Counted from the stretch's first letter, positions 21,554-34,180 are shown. The stretch is DNA of 35,122 nucleotides from Ignavibacteriaceae bacterium (GCA_031292455.1 JARLHC010000122.1:1-35122); one strand, 5' to 3'. Numbers and translations are program-made. Notes: generated by a model from the sequence alone, not told the origin.

Positions 21554-23971
21554 TTATTTTATATCCTTCAGAAACGCGCATCTTGTAACAGGAGGCAATT
21601 CAGATCCTTCACCTTTGACAGTTTTCCAAAGGATTTCGTTAAATTCTCTTTCAGGCACAGCATCTTCGATTGTAAGATTCATCTTTTCGCACTTATCCCC
21701 ACCGAATAGACCTGCACTGTTTTTCTCATTAAGGTCTATTTCGGGTTTTTCAGCATTAAAGAAATTTAGATCAGGGACATCCATGATAGGATTTAATATA
21801 GGTGCCGCTGATAAATCGAACTGGGTCATTGGTTTAAGACCAAGTACAAGTTCCATAGTTTTCAATACACTGCTTGTTGTATACATTGTATGGTCAATAA
21901 AACCTCTTTTTACATAGGGGCCGATAACCATCAGAACAGATCTGTGGGCGTCAATATGATCAGAGCCATTTTGTGCGTCATCTTCCACGACAAATATTAA
22001 GCTTTCCTTCCAGTATTTACTTTTTGAAATCGTCTCAACAATTTCCCCGAGAGCATAGTCATTATCAGCGATCATAGCATTTATAGTTGGGGTTCCCCTC
22101 CTCGTTCCGGAAGTATGATCGTTGGGAAGTCTAATTAATTCAAAAGCAGGAAGTGAGTCCTGGATAACTAACTTATCAAAATCTTCTTTCCATATTTTGA
22201 AACGGTACTGATCAGTGATCCTCAAATCGAATCCAGGGTATTTCTCATAAGTAACAGGCACAAGAGCAGAAAGGGCTCCAGAATAGATTCCTTTATCACT
22301 AGTAACAAATTCACCATAATTCCTATAGCTTAGACCTTTATTGATAACACGGTTCCAAATATAGCCGGAAGATGGAGAAGCAATTTCTTTCCCCCCTTCA
22401 TAATCATAAGTTCCACCCCGTCCGCCATATTGATTAGGCCAAGTTTTTTCAGTGTAATCAGATGCATATGCAGCTGTAGACCAATTATGCCCGTCTGCGC
22501 TAATTTCTGCATCAGCGTAGAAATTATCAAACAGAGAAAAACTCTCGACCAGTTTATGAGTGTTGGGAGTAATCGATTTGGGAAAAAGGCATAAAGAGGT
22601 GTCTCCATTCCCTCCAGGAATATCTCCTAAAACCTGATCATACGTACGGTTCTCTTTAATTATGTAAAAGAGATGCTTGATCTGAGTACTCCCCTTATCA
22701 TCATGTGTAACAGGTATAACAGACTGCCCGGAAATTGGTGGCTTTTGATAATAATAAGGGGTATTATCATATACTTGTAGAGAATATTTCTTCAATTGTT
22801 CGATATCCGGATAACTAATAATGGAGAGGGTACCTTTAAAAAGACTGCCAATATACTGCTCATCTTTACGTAAAGATTTTGTGCCTGGTTTAGGACCATT
22901 CGGATTTGCCATTGAAGTCAGTCCTTTGCCATTTGCAACTAATAACTGATCTTTCCCTTTTAAATATTTGACAGATGTAGGGTACCAGCCTACAGGAATA
23001 AATCCTATATTTTTTGATTCACCCGGAGTAGAAATATCAAATAATGACAAATAATTATTATCAGCATTTGCAATCAATATAACCGACTCGTCTTTATTAA
23101 AAGTAATTGCATTGGGAGTACTTCCGAATGGAATATCAGGTTTGAGGGCCGAATTTAACCTTTCAGTTTCTGAATTACTTATAAGATCAACCACAGAAAC
23201 CGAGTTATTATTAGCATTAGTTACGAACAGTCTTTTATCATCTTTAGAAATTAATAACTCACATGGGTGGTCCCCTACTTTAATGAATCGTTCAATCTCG
23301 AGCTTTTCAAGGTTGACTACGGCAATTTTTGCTCCCCCCCATAGCGAGACGTATGCATAGTTATTTCTATGATCAACAATTACATCAAAGCACTCTGAAC
23401 CTGCGAGGAGTTTTTTGATCAGTTTATTTTTATTAAGATCATATATATATATGGAATTACTTTTCATGGATACAGCCATTAAATAGTTTTTCAACGGCCA
23501 GTAAGTTAAACCTGTAACAGCAATTATATTATCATTTCCTTCCCTAAGATTCAACGAATCATTCAATGATAAATTTCCTTCCTTAAAAGTATAACAGTAC
23601 ACTTTATCATTATAACCTCCCGAAACAAAAAGGATGGATTCATCTTTATTAAAACAAAGTCCTCTCCATGTTCTGTCAATAGTCAGCCGCTGAATTTCAG
23701 TCTTACTATTCAAGTCAATGACAGAAATAGAATTCTCTCCCAATCCACTATTTGAAGTGATGGCATATTTTTCATCTTTTGTGAATATAAGGTTCATAGG
23801 AAGTTCCCCGATACCAATATTTACTTCCGGGGGTGTCAGTTTCCAACCATTAGGGAGTAATGTATAATCACCCTTATCTCCAGGCAGTTTTAGATCTTTA
23901 ATTAACTCTTTAGTTGTGCATCCGGCAAATATAAAAAGGGACAGCACAATAATAATAATATATGATTTCAT
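21554..23971 (-). CDS. lipoprotein with YncE-type beta-propeller and phosphoesterase domain
   Basis: An 805-residue protein with a lipoprotein signal (FIFAGC, Cys18). Residues about 45-390 form a YVTN/YncE-like propeller with repeated units such as SVIDLNSKTEIQRL, AVVNLEKLEIERFIKVGDHPCEL and SVVDLISNSETERL. Residues about 430-790 form an alkaline-phosphatase-superfamily phosphoesterase domain, with KENRTYDQVLGD (about 436-447) and a probable metal site DDAQNGSDHIDAHR (about 662-675). Bifunctional YncE/phosphoesterase proteins are a known family of unsettled substrate. It is the last of six tightly spaced genes, seven bases after the amidase, and is closed by the terminator shared with secF. 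Confidence 0.87.
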   Translation of the reverse strand: MKSYIIIIVLSLFIFAGCTTKELIKDLKLPGDKGDYTLLPNGWKLTPPEVNIGIGELPMNLIFTKDEKYAITSNSGLGENSISVIDLNSKTEIQRLTIDRTWRGLCFNKDESILFVSGGYNDKVYCYTFKEGNLSLNDSLNLREGNDNIIAVTGLTYWPLKNYLMAVSMKSNSIYIYDLNKNKLIKKLLAGSECFDVIVDHRNNYAYVSLWGGAKIAVVNLEKLEIERFIKVGDHPCELLISKDDKRLFVTNANNNSVSVVDLISNSETERLNSALKPDIPFGSTPNAITFNKDESVILIANADNNYLSLFDISTPGESKNIGFIPVGWYPTSVKYLKGKDQLLVANGKGLTSMANPNGPKPGTKSLRKDEQYIGSLFKGTLSIISYPDIEQLKKYSLQVYDNTPYYYQKPPISGQSVIPVTHDDKGSTQIKHLFYIIKENRTYDQVLGDIPGGNGDTSLCLFPKSITPNTHKLVESFSLFDNFYADAEISADGHNWSTAAYASDYTEKTWPNQYGGRGGTYDYEGGKEIASPSSGYIWNRVINKGLSYRNYGEFVTSDKGIYSGALSALVPVTYEKYPGFDLRITDQYRFKIWKEDFDKLVIQDSLPAFELIRLPNDHTSGTRRGTPTINAMIADNDYALGEIVETISKSKYWKESLIFVVEDDAQNGSDHIDAHRSVLMVIGPYVKRGFIDHTMYTTSSVLKTMELVLGLKPMTQFDLSAAPILNPIMDVPDLNFFNAEKPEIDLNEKNSAGLFGGDKCEKMNLTIEDAVPEREFNEILWKTVKGEGSELPPVTRCAFLKDIK

Positions 23972-23978
23972 TATAGAA

Positions 23979-25673
23979 TTACCAGTTTAATGGTGGATGT
24001 TTTTTATTGAAGTTAGTTACTTTCTGGAATTGATTAGCGGCAGAAAGTATTATACCCTCATCATAAAGATTGCCGACAAATGAAATACTTGTAGGCATTC
24101 CTTTAGATGTAAAACCGTTAGGGAATGCAATGCACGGATGACCTGTAAGATTAAAGAGAAGCTGTGTATCATCTTCCAAAGAAGGGACTACCAAAACATC
24201 GAACTTCTGCATAATCTGATTAAGCTGACATACAAGTTTAGTTCGAAGTCTGTTTGCATTGATATATTCTACAGCCGGAATAAAGCGTGACGCACGGAAT
24301 ATATTAGGCCATGAATCTTTAGTTTGTTTAACCATTTTATCATCGTCCCCATTCCTAGTCAAAAGGTCAAAAGCTGCTCCAGCCTCGGCTTCCAATATTA
24401 TTGATAAATCCTGGAGAGGGATATCGGAGTTAAATTCAACGGGAGTAAGGTTAAAACCCATCTGCTGAAGTTTATTAAGAGTAAGGGAATCATTATCCTT
24501 CAGGTCATAATTTTTTGCAAAATTTAATTTTAGGTATCCTACTCTTAATTTCTTAAGGTTTAATTTTGAATAATAATTAAAAGGCGCATTTACAGTATTA
24601 GGATCGATATTATCTTGTCCTCTTATAACATCGAAAACTATTGCACAGTCTTCAGCAGATCTGCATATGGGACCTACTTTATCCATTGACCAGCTTAAGG
24701 CCATTGCACCTGCTCTGCTAACTCTTCCGAAAGAAGGGCGAAACCCTGTTACCCCACAGATAGTTGAAGGGGATACAATTGAACCCCAGGTTTCTGTTCC
24801 AATAGCAAAGGGAAGAAGACCGGCTGATACAGAAGAAGCAGAGCCGGCAGAAGATCCACTTGAACCTTGAGTAATATCCCAAGGATTACGAGTCATTCCC
24901 CCGAACCAGACATCCCCCATGGCCAATTCACCCATAGTTAGTTTAGCAAGCAGAACTCCTCCAGCAGCTTCTAATTTGTTGAAAACTGTCGAATTATAAT
25001 CAATTACCTGCCCCTTAAATGGAACAGCACCCCATGTGGTTGGGTATCCTTTAACAGCAAAAAGATCCTTTAGCCCGTAGGGAATTCCATGCAGAGTGCC
25101 TCTATACTTTCCAGCAGCAAGTTCTTTATCCAGATCGGCTGCTCTTCTTAAAGCATAATCTTCAGTTAGTGTAACAACACACTGGAGCTTTGGTGAATAT
25201 TTCTTCAGCCGTTGTAAATAAAATTTTGTCAAAGCTAAACAGGAAACTCTCTTAGTCTTAATTAATTCGGCCAATTGTCCGATCGAGTACCAAGCAAGAT
25301 CTTCCTCATATACAGGTAAAGCTAAATTAGTATATTTAGAAAATTCAATATGAAATTGTTTAGAAGGGATCCGGAATCCCGGAGGAGCAGGATTGAATAG
25401 AAGAGAAGGTGGAATATCATTTGATAGGTATGCTTTTCTAATATTCTGATAATTTTTCAAATGAGCATTTAAACTCTCTATGAGGGAATCCCGTTTAGCA
25501 TCTGAGAAATTAAGTCCAATAATATTTTCTGCCTGAATAACAGATTCTTTATTTATTGTTTTATCGAAAATGAAGGCTGTTGAAATAATTACAATCGAAA
25601 AAATTATAGCCTTTAAAAGGAGGGAAAAATTCCTCCACTCAATCGGGAATCTTATCTTTAGTAAATTTTTCAT
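23979..25673 (-). CDS. membrane-anchored amidase (amidase-signature family)
   Basis: A 564-residue amidase-signature hydrolase with an N-terminal membrane anchor at about residues 18-36 and an added N-terminal region to about 120. The Ser-Ser-Lys catalytic triad is visible: Lys202 in YGLKDLFAVKG, cis-Ser274 in QGSSGSSAGSA, and nucleophile Ser298 in GTETWGSIVSPS. The family cleaves amide bonds in many substrates; the membrane anchor places this one in the periplasm. It does not look like GatA, which lacks such an anchor. The first 35 bases overlap the end of the GT2 gene, so the two are translationally coupled. Its place after a polysaccharide synthase hints at action on an N-acetyl or amide group in the product, but this is unproven. 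Confidence 0.88.
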   Translation of the reverse strand: MKNLLKIRFPIEWRNFSLLLKAIIFSIVIISTAFIFDKTINKESVIQAENIIGLNFSDAKRDSLIESLNAHLKNYQNIRKAYLSNDIPPSLLFNPAPPGFRIPSKQFHIEFSKYTNLALPVYEEDLAWYSIGQLAELIKTKRVSCLALTKFYLQRLKKYSPKLQCVVTLTEDYALRRAADLDKELAAGKYRGTLHGIPYGLKDLFAVKGYPTTWGAVPFKGQVIDYNSTVFNKLEAAGGVLLAKLTMGELAMGDVWFGGMTRNPWDITQGSSGSSAGSASSVSAGLLPFAIGTETWGSIVSPSTICGVTGFRPSFGRVSRAGAMALSWSMDKVGPICRSAEDCAIVFDVIRGQDNIDPNTVNAPFNYYSKLNLKKLRVGYLKLNFAKNYDLKDNDSLTLNKLQQMGFNLTPVEFNSDIPLQDLSIILEAEAGAAFDLLTRNGDDDKMVKQTKDSWPNIFRASRFIPAVEYINANRLRTKLVCQLNQIMQKFDVLVVPSLEDDTQLLFNLTGHPCIAFPNGFTSKGMPTSISFVGNLYDEGIILSAANQFQKVTNFNKKHPPLNW

Positions 25674-26937
25674 CTCCTTTACCTATATCAAATCTTATCG
25701 TTTTGGCCCAGATATTTTTTTCTTTTTTAATATATTCAGAATAAGCTGCTTTAAGCACTATATAGATCCAGAGCTGGCAGTAAGAAAAATACATTAGCAG
25801 AATCAGACCTATCTTTCCAATACTATCTTCGTTATCATAAGAAATAGCAAGCATAATTTCAAATATGAAAAGGACCATAGCCATTACCCAGACGAAAGTA
25901 TATGGTCCGGGAAGAGATATACTAACTAAATTCAGAAGTCCCACAATAAACAACAAATCTGATATAATAATGGCGGCAAAGAAAACATAATAAAGAGCCA
26001 ATGTATATAGAATATCAAAAGCAAGGCGCCTGTTCTTAAATTGCCTTAATTGCCTAGCAAATTTGGATATTACATAATTATTGCCTCTGACCCAGCGCAT
26101 TCTTTGTTTTATCCAAACACGCCAGTTTTCAGGTTCCTGCTCATAAGTTAAAGCATAAGGAATGAATTTGATTTTGTAGCCTTCCTGATATATTCTTATA
26201 CTTAATTCTGAATCCTCAGTAAGAGCCTCCTCATCCCAGCCATTTAATTTTTTAATCAGCCAATTCCACATAACAAAATTTGTCCCGGGAAGGGTTGCAA
26301 TATTATGCATCTGCCATCTACCTGCCTGTAACATTGACTGGAAGCTTAAGGTTTCAATATTGATAAATTTAGTAAGCCAGTTCTTATCTTTGTTAACAGT
26401 CCGAAATTTGCCAAGTACGGCACCAAGTTCTTTATGCTGAATAAGCTGTGCAACCAGATAGCGGAGCGAATCTTTATCAGGTGTATTATCAGCATCGTAA
26501 ACAGCAATGATTTCCCCTTGAGCTGCTTTTATTCCAAGATTTAAAGTACGTGATTTCCCTTTTCCACCCTCACCCATTGGAATATCATAAAGCGATACGC
26601 GACAATCCTTTTCTGCATAACTTTCAATTATTTTCTTTGTATTATCCGTAGAACCGTCGTTTATCACAATAATCTGCAGTTTATCATGCGGATATACAAT
26701 TTTTAACATAGACTCAATAGTATTGCCAATTACGATCTCTTCATTATGTGCCGGGATCAGAATTGAGCATGTAGGGTAATCAAATTCCATTTCATCGATT
26801 TGTTTTTTCTCCTTAAGTGATTTTACGAGATTCACGTAACCATATACAGTTAAAATAAACTGGTAGGCAATCATGAACCAGATAAGTATAACAGCTATGA
26901 CAAAGAAAAAACTTAGGCTGACTTCTAAAATAGACAT
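25639..26937 (-). CDS. processive-type membrane glycosyltransferase GT2 (polysaccharide synthase-like)
   Basis: A 432-residue integral membrane GT2 resembling PgaC/IcaA, hyaluronan and cellulose synthases. An N-terminal helix (about 10-35) is followed by the GT-A domain with Asp94 (VINDGST), Asp148-Asp150 (DADN), the TED motif at 240-242, and QRMRW at 278-282, so the D,D,D,QxxRW pattern of processive enzymes is complete. Three more membrane segments lie at about 308-330, 345-367 and 378-398. No PilZ or other c-di-GMP domain is present. Such enzymes polymerise a sugar from UDP-sugar and move the chain across the membrane. It sits 19 bases after the deacetylase/hydrolase gene and overlaps the amidase. 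Confidence 0.9.
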   Translation of the reverse strand: MSILEVSLSFFFVIAVILIWFMIAYQFILTVYGYVNLVKSLKEKKQIDEMEFDYPTCSILIPAHNEEIVIGNTIESMLKIVYPHDKLQIIVINDGSTDNTKKIIESYAEKDCRVSLYDIPMGEGGKGKSRTLNLGIKAAQGEIIAVYDADNTPDKDSLRYLVAQLIQHKELGAVLGKFRTVNKDKNWLTKFINIETLSFQSMLQAGRWQMHNIATLPGTNFVMWNWLIKKLNGWDEEALTEDSELSIRIYQEGYKIKFIPYALTYEQEPENWRVWIKQRMRWVRGNNYVISKFARQLRQFKNRRLAFDILYTLALYYVFFAAIIISDLLFIVGLLNLVSISLPGPYTFVWVMAMVLFIFEIMLAISYDNEDSIGKIGLILLMYFSYCQLWIYIVLKAAYSEYIKKEKNIWAKTIRFDIGKGDEKFTKDKIPD

Positions 26938-26956: not shown

Positions 26957-29900
26957 TTAAATAGTTGAATATTTTCTTCTAATTATTTTCAATATAAGAT
27001 ACATGCATACTAAAAGGGTAACAGCTAAAGTTCCAAAAATGGCAATTCCGGTAGAAGACCAAAGTGAAGTTAAGTTTATGCCGTAAGAAAATGAATTGCC
27101 GACTCCAATCTCTACAAAATGGCTGCCAGTTGGGAGGAAAATGCTAAAACAGTCATTCCCTTCCATAATATCAAATTTAAAATCCTGATGATCCACTTTT
27201 ACCCAGGTAGGGTTCCTGTTAAGAGATAATAGTGTCCTTACCTGAGAATCATAATAAAATTTAATATCCTTCATTCCATAGGCCACTGATATGAGATTAC
27301 CTGTGAATGAAAGTATTTTAGCCTGGAGTTCGTGAGTCGAAAATGAAGTAACTGCTACATCAGAAACAGTAACAATATGTCTTCCGGCAGGAATAGAATA
27401 CCGATTATCTCTAAGCGGGGCAATGGGATTACCATCAATTCTGATTTCCTTAATATTTAAAGGCAATTTAATCTCAAAAGAATACGGGGAATTGAATTCA
27501 TAACCGTTATCCAGAACTTTATATTCTACCCCCACTGAAGCAGCGTATGGGAAGAAGGCTAAATCCTGAGCATTTACACTTGCCTCAGAATAAATAACGC
27601 TTCTGGGAGCTCCAGTAGAAACTGCATTAATTAGATGAAAACTTTCAGTCCCTGTTTGAATCAATGTAGGAAATGGTGTTATAACATTATCTTTTCTGAA
27701 ATTTAATATGTTCAGATCTAACATAAGTTTAGAATTACTTCCAATTAAGCTGGAATAGAATTTTCCCATCTCTACATATCTCATCGGATCAGTAGACCAG
27801 AGATTTTCAGGATCTTCCACATTCAGGGAAAAACCATATTTTTTTTGCAGCTGAATAATGTTGCTCATATCGGCAGCAATATATTCTTTTAATTCAGGCG
27901 AACCATAGCTGTCTAATGCTGTAACGATAACTTCAAATCCATTTTTCTTTTTTGCAATCTTTGTAAAAGTATTAAGAAACAAATCATATACAGATTCCAA
28001 TTTTTTTATTCTGTATTGAATTATTTTATTTTTAATATCATCATTATATTTCCAATAGGAGGAAGAAGAGGGATCGAATATTTTAAATAAATCAATTCCA
28101 TATAATTTCATTACTTCGCTTCTGGCTGAACGATGCATAGGGGTAAAGTATTTAGGATCTTCCAGACCTTTTGCAGCCTCGAAGTAAAGTTCAGCCAGAT
28201 TCACGCCATCCCAGTCATAACTATTAAGGAATTTCCCAAATTCATAATTCATGGTAGCAAGGCAACTATCATCAGTTAAAGCCATCGGATAACGCCATGA
28301 AGGGCGGACATCTTCATTCTTATAATTTTTTTCCCTCCACTGAGGATGCTCCTGCCAGAATTTCAGACTTACTTGTGGGGGTTCAAGCCATGCATAGACT
28401 AAAATTCCATTCGCATGTGCAAGATTTATAAGCCGTTTATAATCATAAGTCCAAGTGGGATAATCATGCCATCCTGCTACATGGATAATCCTTATCCCCT
28501 GGTTCACCCATTGTTTTATCAAATTTTCGATACTATAGGTATGCCTAAATCCCGGATCAAAAAAAACTTCAAGGTTATCTTTACGGACAAGCGGTCTTAA
28601 ATTTAAATACCTTTTTACATAGTCCATTAAATAAGGATAAAGGCTGTAACCCAAACGCGAATAGGGGTCAAACCTTGAATTAAAGAACAATAATTTCCCT
28701 TTCCCAATCTGACGTCCGATAACCATCGGGATTCCAGTAATTTCATCCATAGAAAAGACTTCATCCCTGGGTTCAATTTCAATTTTATTTACCAGTTCTG
28801 CATAACGCCATGATATTTTTTCTTCAGGGAAAAATTTTTCTCTTAGTTTGATAACTCTCAGATTATTCTGAGTAAATTTTAATCCCAATTCTGTAGCAAT
28901 TTCATTTTTGGTATCGGTAATTATGTTACCCCCATTTTGTATAAAAGCCGAAATTACATCAAAATCTTTATCGGGAAGTGAATCAACTATTGCATAAGGA
29001 ATTATAAGAAGATTATATTTTTTAAGGTCAAGATTCTCTCCCAGAAAAATAGTATCTACATTAATATTTACGCTTTTGAATACCGAGGCAAAGGATGCCT
29101 GGTCATTATAAGCTCCTCCTTTTGAAAAATGATTCCAAAGGATTACCGGGCGGGCGATATTCCAATCTTCATTCGGAGCAAATAAATTTTTATATAAACG
29201 TTGAGCATGATTTGAAATCTTTTCGAAAAATGTTAACTCATGCTCCTTATATTCGGTTGTTTCGGCGCGGTAAAATTCTCCTGGTTTCAGTTCCACATAC
29301 TTTGTAACCAATCCCTTTAATCTTTTATCAGAGTAAATTTTTTCTTTTATTTCTCCGTTATGAGAGTAGTAAGCTTCGACTAAGTATTGGTCATCAAGAT
29401 TCACAGTGTAGCTTTGGGAACCTGTGAGCATTACCTTATCCTTTAATTTTACCCAGTTGGTTTCATCTCTCAAATCAATATAAGTATATCCAAGAGCTGT
29501 AATCCCCTCAACAAGTTCTTTCAGCAGATCAAGATCAAGAAAGTCATGAAAAAAGCAAGAAGCGAAACCATCTCTCACATAAAGATTTGTTTTAGCTCCT
29601 TTTAAAATATCCTGAACTGCTTTTTGGCTAACAGATTTATTATTCTGATCATAAGGGACATATCCAAGGTTTTCAGGTATTATTTTCTGACCAAAAAGGT
29701 CCTGATTAATTATATAGGGAAAATACTGGCTATGATCATAATCCTCTATAGCAAGTCTTTGTTCCATAGCAGTGCTGAAATATTTGGAAATGGTTTTGTA
29801 AAGCTGAAAGGAAGCGGTATAATGGGGAGTTTCCCAAATCATGGGATATAATCCATTTTTCATAAATTCCTGGATACCTAATTCAATTTTTCGTGATATT

Positions 29901-30940
29901 GAAGCTTCCGTTTCATCTTTAATAGGTTTATTGGTTGACTCATCCCAGAATTCAAAATCCGAAGCAGTTATTCCTTTATATTGATGAGTAATTCCGTGCA
30001 TGACTATGGTACCACCATTTTTAACAATATACTTTAATGCATCGACAAGATCAGGTTTATCAGATAAACTTATTCTCACACCAGCACCGGGATCAACATA
30101 GAAAGGGATAACACCGACAAGGAAAGGTATTCCTTTTTCTGAAAGTAAATCTGCGATATCGCGGAGTTTATCCGGATTATCCATAGGAGATACATCCTCA
30201 ATTCTAATTAAAGCTGAATGAGAATCTTTATGGTATTCTCCCAAAATATCATGGAGCATATCCGCAAACAGGAGATATCTGTCATTTTCATCTGCATATG
30301 CAAATGGAGAGTCTGCCACATAAATTAGATTTTTTGACTTAACTATATAAGGAGTCTCTTTCTTTTTCTTTGTTGAATACGCAGTGGCAAGTATTTGAAC
30401 TCCTTTCTTATCAGAGATATTTATTATACTTGTATGGACATCTCCTTTGGTAAAAGTTTTTCCGTTACTTTTTACGATATCAAATCCGGCTGTTGAATCA
30501 TATTCCGTAACAGTAAACCCAAAAATTTTCTTAAGATTATAGCTTTTTGAAAATTCAAGAAAGCCAGTATACATCCAAGTTACAGGTTTGGTAGTTGATA
30601 GTACATCATTTAAAAAGAAATCCGGCACTTTATCTTTTAATTTATACCCGATATAGAAGATAAAGTCAAAGTTATTTAATTCATTTTTTGAATATTGATT
30701 AACCCCTTTAAGAGTAGTTTTTGTATTAAAATGCCCCATTAACTGAGCAAGCTGACGTCCATCTGCAAATGCAAAACTTTTTAAGTCCGTATTGCCTTCG
30801 GTAAGAATCAATACACGTTTTGCCGGATTCTCCTGAGAAAACGTCCTATCTCCTGTTGAGAAAAGTATTAGCCCGAAAAGTAAATAAAATAGACCTATTA
30901 CAATTTTTGTCTGAGCAGTGTTTTTTATATTATGATTCAT
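26957..30940 (-). CDS. large periplasmic fusion: DUF2334 deacetylase-like + GHL10-like TIM barrel, C-terminal anchor
   Basis: A 1327-residue protein. Order: signal peptide or anchor (about 12-35); Rossmann-like region (40-235); DUF2334 domain (243-500) with likely metal ligands Asp249 (RIEDVSP), His315 and His319 (VMHGITHQY), a WETPHY motif (369-374) and His465 (FFHDF); a second Rossmann/GATase-like domain (596-780, YNLLIIPYAIV, NGGNIITDT); a GHL10-like TIM barrel (788-1090) with Asp911 and Glu917 in DWDGVNLAELYFE; a beta-rich part; and a membrane helix near 1297-1319. DUF2334 is related to polysaccharide deacetylases. Deacetylase plus glycoside hydrolase in one chain recalls PgaB and PelA, but the domains differ. 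It lies ten bases after wecB and 19 before the GT2 gene. Catalytic residues of the barrel are inferred. Confidence 0.85.
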   Translation of the reverse strand: MNHNIKNTAQTKIVIGLFYLLFGLILFSTGDRTFSQENPAKRVLILTEGNTDLKSFAFADGRQLAQLMGHFNTKTTLKGVNQYSKNELNNFDFIFYIGYKLKDKVPDFFLNDVLSTTKPVTWMYTGFLEFSKSYNLKKIFGFTVTEYDSTAGFDIVKSNGKTFTKGDVHTSIINISDKKGVQILATAYSTKKKKETPYIVKSKNLIYVADSPFAYADENDRYLLFADMLHDILGEYHKDSHSALIRIEDVSPMDNPDKLRDIADLLSEKGIPFLVGVIPFYVDPGAGVRISLSDKPDLVDALKYIVKNGGTIVMHGITHQYKGITASDFEFWDESTNKPIKDETEASISRKIELGIQEFMKNGLYPMIWETPHYTASFQLYKTISKYFSTAMEQRLAIEDYDHSQYFPYIINQDLFGQKIIPENLGYVPYDQNNKSVSQKAVQDILKGAKTNLYVRDGFASCFFHDFLDLDLLKELVEGITALGYTYIDLRDETNWVKLKDKVMLTGSQSYTVNLDDQYLVEAYYSHNGEIKEKIYSDKRLKGLVTKYVELKPGEFYRAETTEYKEHELTFFEKISNHAQRLYKNLFAPNEDWNIARPVILWNHFSKGGAYNDQASFASVFKSVNINVDTIFLGENLDLKKYNLLIIPYAIVDSLPDKDFDVISAFIQNGGNIITDTKNEIATELGLKFTQNNLRVIKLREKFFPEEKISWRYAELVNKIEIEPRDEVFSMDEITGIPMVIGRQIGKGKLLFFNSRFDPYSRLGYSLYPYLMDYVKRYLNLRPLVRKDNLEVFFDPGFRHTYSIENLIKQWVNQGIRIIHVAGWHDYPTWTYDYKRLINLAHANGILVYAWLEPPQVSLKFWQEHPQWREKNYKNEDVRPSWRYPMALTDDSCLATMNYEFGKFLNSYDWDGVNLAELYFEAAKGLEDPKYFTPMHRSARSEVMKLYGIDLFKIFDPSSSSYWKYNDDIKNKIIQYRIKKLESVYDLFLNTFTKIAKKKNGFEVIVTALDSYGSPELKEYIAADMSNIIQLQKKYGFSLNVEDPENLWSTDPMRYVEMGKFYSSLIGSNSKLMLDLNILNFRKDNVITPFPTLIQTGTESFHLINAVSTGAPRSVIYSEASVNAQDLAFFPYAASVGVEYKVLDNGYEFNSPYSFEIKLPLNIKEIRIDGNPIAPLRDNRYSIPAGRHIVTVSDVAVTSFSTHELQAKILSFTGNLISVAYGMKDIKFYYDSQVRTLLSLNRNPTWVKVDHQDFKFDIMEGNDCFSIFLPTGSHFVEIGVGNSFSYGINLTSLWSSTGIAIFGTLAVTLLVCMYLILKIIRRKYSTI

Positions 30941-30950
30941 AAACCTAAGA

Positions 30951-32105
30951 TTACTTATGGGGAATAAATTCTTTTATCAATGAATTTGAAATATTAAAAT
31001 AGTTTTTAAGAATCTGAACTGTTCTTTTTGCAGATAAGCCATCACCGTATGGGTTTACTGCAGAAGCCATTTTCTTGTAGGCAGATTTATTTTCAATTAA
31101 TCTTTTTGAAGTTCTGAATATTTTATCTTCATCCAGCCCTACCAGCTTAACAGTTCCATATTTTACTGCTTCAGGTCGTTCAGTTACTTTTCTTAAGACT
31201 AAAATCGGAATTCCGAAATGGGGTCCTTCTTCCTGTACACCCCCAGAATCAGTAATAATTAAATAAGTTTTGGACATAAAATTAACAAAGTCTGAATAAT
31301 CCAGAGGGGCAATTAAGAATACATTTTTAAGATTATCCAAAGTATTGTGGACTACTTCCTTTACAACAGGATTCAAATGCACCGGAAAGACAAAATTAAA
31401 ATCAGGATATTGTATTGCAAGTCTTTTTACTGCATTACATGCTCCTTTCATTGGTTTCCCCCAATTTTCGCGTCTATGCATAGTAACCAGGATTATTTTC
31501 TTCCTCTGTGATATGACTTCATTAAGCATCGGCACGGTAAACTTATAATTTTTTTTAATAGAGATATTCAAAGCATCTATTACAGTATTTCCTGTTACAA
31601 ATATAGATTCTGCTGAAATATTTTCCTTTAATAATGCTTTCTTTGCAGTATCAGTAGGAGCAAAATGGAGATCAGTCAATACACTAGTTAAACGGCGGTT
31701 TATCTCCTCAGGGAAAGGGTTGGCTTTATCATTTGTCCTAAGTCCGGCCTCAACATGTCCGACAGGGATCTGGTGATAAAATGCTACAAGACTACCTACA
31801 AAAGTAGTAGTTGTATCTCCCTGAACAATCACCATATCAGGATGCTCTTTTAAAAGCACTTCACCGAGCTTTCCAATTGTATTTTTAGTAAGCGTAGCTA
31901 ATGATTGTTGAGGCACCATAATATTAAGGTCATAATCTGGTGTTATCTTAAAGATATTCAGCACCTGATCCAACATTTGGCGATGCTGTGCTGTAGCAAT
32001 AGTAATTACTTTAAAGAATTTCTTCTCTTTTTTTAACTCTAAAATAATAGAAGCCAGTTTAATCGTATCTGGTCTTGTACCGAATATAACCGCTATTTTT
32101 TTCAC
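30951..32105 (-). CDS. wecB: UDP-N-acetylglucosamine 2-epimerase (non-hydrolysing)
   Basis: A 384-residue cytosolic enzyme that interconverts UDP-GlcNAc and UDP-ManNAc, supplying ManNAc-type precursors for surface polymers. Hallmarks: N-terminal FGTRPDTIKLAS, VQGDTTTTF, HVEAGLRT, NPFPEEINRRLT, GNTVIDAL, MHRRENWG and TDSGGVQEEGPHFGIP. The usual GTRPEAIK reads GTRPDTIK, a conservative Glu-to-Asp change. The start is GTG, with GGGA about seven bases before it. It is the second gene of the minus-strand operon, 47 bases after the phosphatase and ten before the fusion protein, which suggests that the operon's glycan contains or derives from ManNAc or GlcNAc. Confidence 0.94.
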   Translation of the reverse strand: MKKIAVIFGTRPDTIKLASIILELKKEKKFFKVITIATAQHRQMLDQVLNIFKITPDYDLNIMVPQQSLATLTKNTIGKLGEVLLKEHPDMVIVQGDTTTTFVGSLVAFYHQIPVGHVEAGLRTNDKANPFPEEINRRLTSVLTDLHFAPTDTAKKALLKENISAESIFVTGNTVIDALNISIKKNYKFTVPMLNEVISQRKKIILVTMHRRENWGKPMKGACNAVKRLAIQYPDFNFVFPVHLNPVVKEVVHNTLDNLKNVFLIAPLDYSDFVNFMSKTYLIITDSGGVQEEGPHFGIPILVLRKVTERPEAVKYGTVKLVGLDEDKIFRTSKRLIENKSAYKKMASAVNPYGDGLSAKRTVQILKNYFNISNSLIKEFIPHK

Positions 32106-33460: not shown

Positions 33461-34180
33461 TTATTTTTTACCGGTCACAGTTATACTGAATATTCCCAGA
33501 TTACTATTTCTGAATTCAGATATTTTTTCCGGGCTTAAATATGGAATAAGAGTTTCATCAGGCAAATAGATTGTTTTTGTCTTTTTTATTTCTATTTGAT
33601 TAAAACCGCTTGTTTTGATAATATTTAAATATTCGTCCTGTTGAATAGCACCGGATATACATCCGGCATACATTTCTGCAGATTTTTTAAGCTGCAAAGG
33701 GATCTCTCCTTTTACAACAATATCAGAAACACAAAAATGGCCACCTTTTTTAGTTATTCTATAAATCTCGTTAAAAGCCCTACCTTTATCAGGTACAAGA
33801 TTAAGGACACAATTGCTCACGACAACATCAGCAATATTGTCATCTAGAGGAATGCTTTCAATTTCGCCTAATTTAAAATCCACATTTGCATATTCCAGTT
33901 TAGCCTTATTTATTTCAGCTTTAGCAATCATTTCAGGGGTAAAATCGACTCCAATTACAGTCCCCTTTTCACCAACTAGAGCTCTTGCAATGAAGACATC
34001 ATTTCCAGCGCCTGATCCAAGATCAACAACAACATCCCCTTCCTTAATCCCGGCAAATTCTGTAGGTAATCCGCATCCCAGCCCAAGGTCAGCATCAGGG
34101 ACATAACCTTTTAAGCCAGTATATTCATCTTTCAATACTGTATACCCAACAATTTTGGAATTAGGACCACAGCCGCACAT
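33461..34180 (-). CDS. arsM: arsenite S-adenosylmethionine methyltransferase
   Basis: A 239-residue ArsM, which methylates As(III) with S-adenosylmethionine. The three arsenic-binding cysteines expected by alignment to characterised ArsM are C36 (LGLGCGLP), C124 (VSNCVLNL) and C174 (YAGCISGA). Motif I is VVDLGSGAGNDVFIA. The N-terminal MCGCG is also Cys-rich. Upstream, the same frame remains open and reads EKYGEIASKSGSGC before this ATG, like the usual ArsM N-terminus, but it has no start codon (see findings). The gene follows arsR in the same direction, with an ArsR-like site between them and a terminator after it. Confidence 0.92.
   Translation of the reverse strand: MCGCGPNSKIVGYTVLKDEYTGLKGYVPDADLGLGCGLPTEFAGIKEGDVVVDLGSGAGNDVFIARALVGEKGTVIGVDFTPEMIAKAEINKAKLEYANVDFKLGEIESIPLDDNIADVVVSNCVLNLVPDKGRAFNEIYRITKKGGHFCVSDIVVKGEIPLQLKKSAEMYAGCISGAIQQDEYLNIIKTSGFNQIEIKKTKTIYLPDETLIPYLSPEKISEFRNSNLGIFSITVTGKK

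Follow-up and report, generated by a model that had tools for sequence, protein, structure and literature searches.

The EPS of Listeria is known to be a beta-1,4-ManNAc chain that carries alpha-Gal on alternate residues (PMC11439720), and one of the Pss proteins, PssB, is listed as its deacetylase (PMC6307706). A ManNAc polymer has also been proposed in E. coli for the WecB-dependent Nfr glycan, the receptor of phage N4, and NfrB homologues are often linked to WecB-like genes (PMC8669469, PMC8669472). In the pgaABCD system, PgaB, the deacetylase and GH153 hydrolase of PNAG, carries the two domains in this order in one periplasmic chain, and its gene adjoins that of a GT2 synthase. The window analysed here, a stretch of 35,122 nucleotides from an Ignavibacteriaceae bacterium (GCA_031292455.1 JARLHC010000122.1:1-35122), encodes a fusion protein that resembles each of these systems in part.

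The fusion is encoded by a single unbroken ORF of 1327 codons with an ATG start (Table 1). The original prediction had described a 1327-residue frame, which is real and intact; the minus strand, on which it lies, was missing from that description. The order along the chain is a signal anchor, a Rossmann-like domain, DUF2334, a beta region, a GATase-like domain, a hydrolase-like barrel, a second beta region and a C-terminal membrane helix, and the domain boundaries that had been proposed were correct.

Table 1. Features of the fusion protein and of the genes next to it, in positions of the window; residue numbers are those of the fusion protein.
Feature	Position	Strand	Basis or remark
1327-aa fusion protein	26957..30940	(-)	whole ORF including stop; homologues found
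N-terminal hydrophobic segment, residues 8-31, signal peptide or anchor	30848..30919	(-)	hydropathy
Rossmann-like domain, residues 40-235	30236..30823	(-)	hhalign 99-99.9% to Burkholderia, Comamonadaceae and Streptomyces proteins
DUF2334, residues 243-479; putative metal ligands D249, H315, H319	29504..30214	(-)	Pfam, invariant residues
Beta-rich linker, residues 500-590	29171..29443	(-)	low-confidence model
GATase-like (GH42 trimerisation-like) domain, residues 596-780	28601..29155	(-)	Glyco_hydro_42M; common to paralogue
GHL6/GHL10-related glycoside-hydrolase-like barrel, residues 781-1135	27536..28600	(-)	hhalign; residues kept in paralogues
C-terminal beta region, residues 1135-1285	27086..27538	(-)	low-confidence model
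C-terminal membrane helix, residues 1293-1322, basic tail	26975..27064	(-)	hydropathy, 28 members
WecB-type non-hydrolysing UDP-GlcNAc 2-epimerase	30951..32105	(-)	TIGR00236; 10 bases upstream of fusion
GT2 polymer synthase	25639..26937	(-)	DxD, TED, QxxRW motifs; 19 bases downstream of fusion
Amidase with N-terminal hydrophobic stretch	23979..25673	(-)	Pfam; overlaps GT2 gene
Beta-propeller/phosphoesterase protein	21554..23971	(-)	Pfam; after GT2 in sister genome L012 too

The fusion is widespread in one branch of Bacteroidota and is no local oddity. Its full-length form, counted wherever DUF2334 lies in an open frame longer than 1,200 aa, was found in 38 of 149 genomes sampled from the class, with lengths close to that of the window protein; an artefact of assembly or chance is thus excluded for both the ORF and its domain order. 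A sample of 395 genomes from the phylum gave 16 matches, namely the window genome, 14 other full-length ones and a single weak one, and all the full-length matches come from one class. The nearest relative, at 83% identity, is found in an Ignavibacteriales MAG (sister locus L012). In the family alignment of 28 members, which are 42-83% identical to the window protein, D249, H315, H319, H373, D457, H465, D911, E917 and E1099, among others, are invariant, while E853 is replaced by Asp in two members. No NCBIfam model exists for the fusion protein, a PDB sequence search with it gave no relative, and no relatives were found in the viral contigs searched. A PDB search with the family profile gave weak matches to GH42 and GH36. 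At one locus (L063:8834-10948), a fusion gene stops after about residue 725 and GT2 is absent nearby; its C-terminal half was apparently lost or rearranged.

In the N-terminal half, the assignment to DUF2334 (PF10096) was borne out by a Pfam model search, with 176 bits against a gathering cut-off of 26. The Asp and HxxxH pattern that forms the metal site of CE4 deacetylases is present as D249, H315 and H319, the very residues that had been put forward as ligands, and all three are conserved in the 28 members. The match of DUF2334 to a CE4 deacetylase profile is weak (probability 59%); the HxxxH motifs of the two line up. Neither PgaB nor IcaB alone was matched by this half in hhalign. Stand-alone Rossmann-DUF2334 proteins of 547-615 aa are found in other phyla, namely in Burkholderia, Comamonadaceae and Streptomyces. 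They align with residues ~41-492 of the fusion and have identical putative active-site residues, but possess neither the C-terminal helix nor the half made up of the GATase-like domain and the barrel. The original prediction had stated that the two Rossmann domains have no counterpart in PgaB. This holds for both, but the first one is not peculiar to the fusion, as it also accompanies DUF2334 in these stand-alone proteins.

The C-terminal half begins with the GATase-like domain. Glyco_hydro_42M, at residues 617-675, lies just below the Pfam cut-off in the window protein and matches 25 of the 28 family members. The putative barrel that follows had been called GHL10-like. GHL6 is closer: hhalign gave it a probability of 98% (E 2e-13) against 77% for GHL10, the E-values being pairwise and without database calibration. 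The window protein has no Pfam match to GHL10 (PF02638); in the whole genome, GHL10 matches a single, different ORF. There is no direct Pfam match for the barrel with GHL6 (PF14871) either, the gathering cut-off being unmet, and across the family GHL6 weakly matches 15 of 28 members when E-values up to 1 are admitted, the lowest being 3.7e-5. The barrel likewise found no match in the GH153 barrel of PgaB (hhalign 1.5%), DUF4434 or YbcH. In profile-profile comparison, D911 aligns with the Asp-Gly that is conserved in GHL6/GHL10. This residue and E917 had been named as candidate acids, and both turned out to be invariant in the 28 members. The barrel residues listed are D795, W851, D911, E917, E1042, D1043, D1075 and E1099; the acids among them, and also E853, are kept in paralogues of ~30% identity.

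These paralogues, of about 733 aa, consist of the GATase-like domain, the barrel and a beta region, and occur in the window's genome as well as in relatives (for instance L065:8975-11176, on contig C39 of G000). Of the two Rossmann-like domains, the second goes with the barrel, which it accompanies in the ~730-aa paralogues. An internal duplication of the two domains was rejected, since a direct hhalign comparison of them gave 0.2%. Each half of the protein is thus found alone, and the fusion is therefore two modules joined. Hydrophobic stretches occur at both termini in nearly all 28 members, and the membrane helix that had been noted at the C-terminus recurs across the family. AlphaFold, run with an input of 4-5 sequences, gave low-confidence models, with a mean pLDDT of 52.5 for the N-terminal half and 43.1 for the C-terminal half, barrel included; Foldseek with the latter, low-pLDDT model returned GH42 matches, in agreement with Pfam.

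The genes for WecB, the fusion, GT2, the amidase and the phosphoesterase/propeller protein form a tight run on the same strand. This operon context of synthase and epimerase, which the original prediction did not contain, is a new finding, and it is on its account that a function can be proposed for the fusion. The operon structure is read directly from the sequences, as are the conservation of the family, its invariant residues and the association with synthase and epimerase. By tblastn, each of the 27 long loci with an intact fusion has GT2 immediately downstream of it, and so do L012, L013 and L014. In the sister locus L012 no amidase was found, and the phosphoesterase follows GT2 directly; the amidase is, therefore, probably not part of the core. 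In most long loci an OM beta-barrel gene is present within ~10 kb, often right after GT2. In the window's own genome, an OM barrel was not found with one distant query (L045 type).

WecB itself scores 487 bits with TIGR00236 (cut-off 210). It lies immediately upstream of the fusion in 8 of 27 long loci (the window and seven more), in 11 of 30 when L013, L014 and L015 are added, and in the sister L012 too. For 8/27, the probability by chance is ~1e-20, assuming ~2 WecB genes among 3,700 and ignoring kinship. The association also extends to whole genomes: with a threshold of at least 450 bits, picked after the scores were seen, WecB is present in 38 of 42 genomes with the fusion and 3 of 40 without it (Fisher 5e-15, kinship ignored), and within the window's own family in 3/3 against 1/15. 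Lowering the threshold to 400 bits gives 39/42 and 6/40, and the curated cut-off gives 42/42 and 32/40. A grouping of WecB, GT2 and DUF2334 recurs on Streptomyces and Comamonadaceae plasmids.

The motifs of the GT2 protein, DxD, TED and QxxRW, are those of processive synthases. It is 42% identical to a Listeria innocua GT2 from a DUF2334-GT2-BcsB operon, while its identity to IcaA is 28% and to PgaC 25%, and among plasmid records its best relatives outside its own group are Enterococcus/Listeria GT2s (42-44%). In a tree, the GT2s of the fusion loci, PssC and related GT2s stand apart from PgaC/IcaA with support of 97/96, and the Comamonadaceae GT groups with E. coli NfrB; the branches are long, and finer placement is unsafe.

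The likeness to Listeria Pss is not limited to the synthase. There, too, a DUF2334 protein with a signal peptide and a C-terminal membrane helix is encoded directly before GT2, and in L. innocua the PssC-type GT2 sits after the DUF2334 gene and before BcsB, which is the pss arrangement. However, PssB has 499 aa and lacks both the barrel and HxxxH, and Listeria has BcsB and diguanylate-cyclase-like genes and a separate hydrolase, PssZ, whereas no BcsB-like PssD or PssE was found among the genes next to the fusion. With PgaB, the fusion shares the logic of deacetylase followed by hydrolase while the families differ, as had been predicted: the genome has no GHL13/GH153 match, and the synthase is not PgaC-like. 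In place of the PgaB domains, the fusion has DUF2334, in which no CE4 is recognisable by direct comparison, and a GHL6-like barrel; two Rossmann-like domains and a membrane anchor are additional, and its GT2 falls outside the PgaC/IcaA clade. The Nfr system (NfrA, NfrB, YbcH, WecB) shares the WecB link, and a Comamonadaceae Nfr-like operon includes DUF2334. Membership of the window in Nfr was rejected, the window GT2 being no NfrB (E 0.077) and NfrA_C being absent from the genome.

We consider it somewhat more probable than the contrary that the fusion works outside the cytoplasm on the polymer of a synthase-dependent, ManNAc-based EPS system, where it would deacetylate and trim this product. 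WecB would convert UDP-GlcNAc to UDP-ManNAc, and the membrane GT2 would polymerise and extrude the product, probably a PssC-type beta-linked ManNAc polymer. The fusion, held in the inner membrane via its C-terminal helix, would take off N-acetyl groups at the DUF2334 metal site (D249/H315/H319) and cut the polymer chain with its GHL6-like barrel (D911/E917). The OM beta-barrel encoded beside the synthase in most relatives would carry the polymer out. We infer the enzyme activities, the substrate, the fold of the barrel and the export route from the comparisons above. One chain would, on this reading, unite jobs that other bacteria divide between proteins.

Several points speak against this reading: the similarity of DUF2334 to CE4 is weak, Listeria PssB is devoid of HxxxH, and the one query for an OM barrel found none in the window's genome. 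In 19 of 30 loci, moreover, WecB is not a neighbour of the fusion, and it may also supply other glycans. The polymer might, then, be a PNAG-like one of GlcNAc, with the fusion as a functional equivalent of PgaB and WecB merely clustered with it to serve another glycan. Along with the non-adjacent loci, the PgaB-like order of deacetylase and hydrolase would suit this explanation, as would the top NCBIfam match of GT2, which is PgaC_IcaA. That match, however, scores 158 bits, far below the cut-off of 422; the synthase is much nearer to the DUF2334-linked GT2 of Listeria, and the strong association with WecB is repeated in other phyla. We regard a GlcNAc polymer as unlikely. It is less likely again that the polymer is as proposed while one or both domains are non-catalytic, the barrel guiding or binding the polymer for export and DUF2334 being structural. 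The loss of HxxxH from Listeria PssB would fit such a role, and the periplasmic Nfr protein of E. coli, YbcH, is dispensable (PMC8669469). Against it stands the invariance of the metal ligands and acids over 28 members of 42-83% identity, and the acids of the barrel are retained even in the ~30%-identical paralogues.

Some GHL10 proteins act on peptidoglycan. The target of the fusion could be a different glycan of the envelope (peptidoglycan or lipopolysaccharide, for example), with GT2 making a short glycan, and the amidase gene downstream in the window would agree with this. Yet the sister locus does without the amidase, GT2 has the motifs of a processive synthase, and homologous synthase systems produce EPS; this last explanation is, in our view, improbable. 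The ManNAc-based reading assigns the uncharacterised DUF2334 and a nameless hydrolase-like barrel a definite function that can be put to the test, and it ties together, through UDP-ManNAc as common precursor, three systems that have been poorly connected so far: Listeria Pss, E. coli Nfr and that of the fusion. More tentatively, and with some doubt, the locus may represent a widespread Bacteroidota EPS machine for a partly deacetylated, cationic poly-N-acetylmannosamine with one bifunctional processing protein. One half of it would then be the first DUF2334 deacetylase to be characterised, and the other would found a new family of glycoside hydrolases for such a polymer. Should cleavage of ManNAc-based polymers by the barrel prove true, enzymes that degrade biofilms could be drawn from it.

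Some further observations were made on related loci. Among DUF2334 proteins from operons of this kind, PssB of Listeria has been studied best. In L. innocua PssB (L083:5488-6987), which lacks HxxxH, the Asp in 'TD' is the sole residue that might serve as a ligand. Judged by these residues, the assigned deacetylase of Listeria may be catalytically dead, and deacetylation would therefore not be needed in every such system. A single run of genes on a Comamonadaceae plasmid (L082:2806-11752) comprises WecB, an NfrB-like GT, DUF2334, an NfrA-like TPR/OM protein and DUF4434; by its gene content, it is an Nfr system plus a putative deacetylase. On a Natrinema plasmid (L087:3290-6155), an archaeal DUF2334 gene overlaps a GT2 gene, and this suggests that the DUF2334-GT2 pair is older or mobile. 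YCF48-like propeller proteins are encoded near many fusion loci (L045:14717-16819 and similar), the one in L045 having a type IX secretion tail. In the window itself, positions 33461-34180 encode an arsenite methyltransferase of the PRK11873 subfamily (296 bits).
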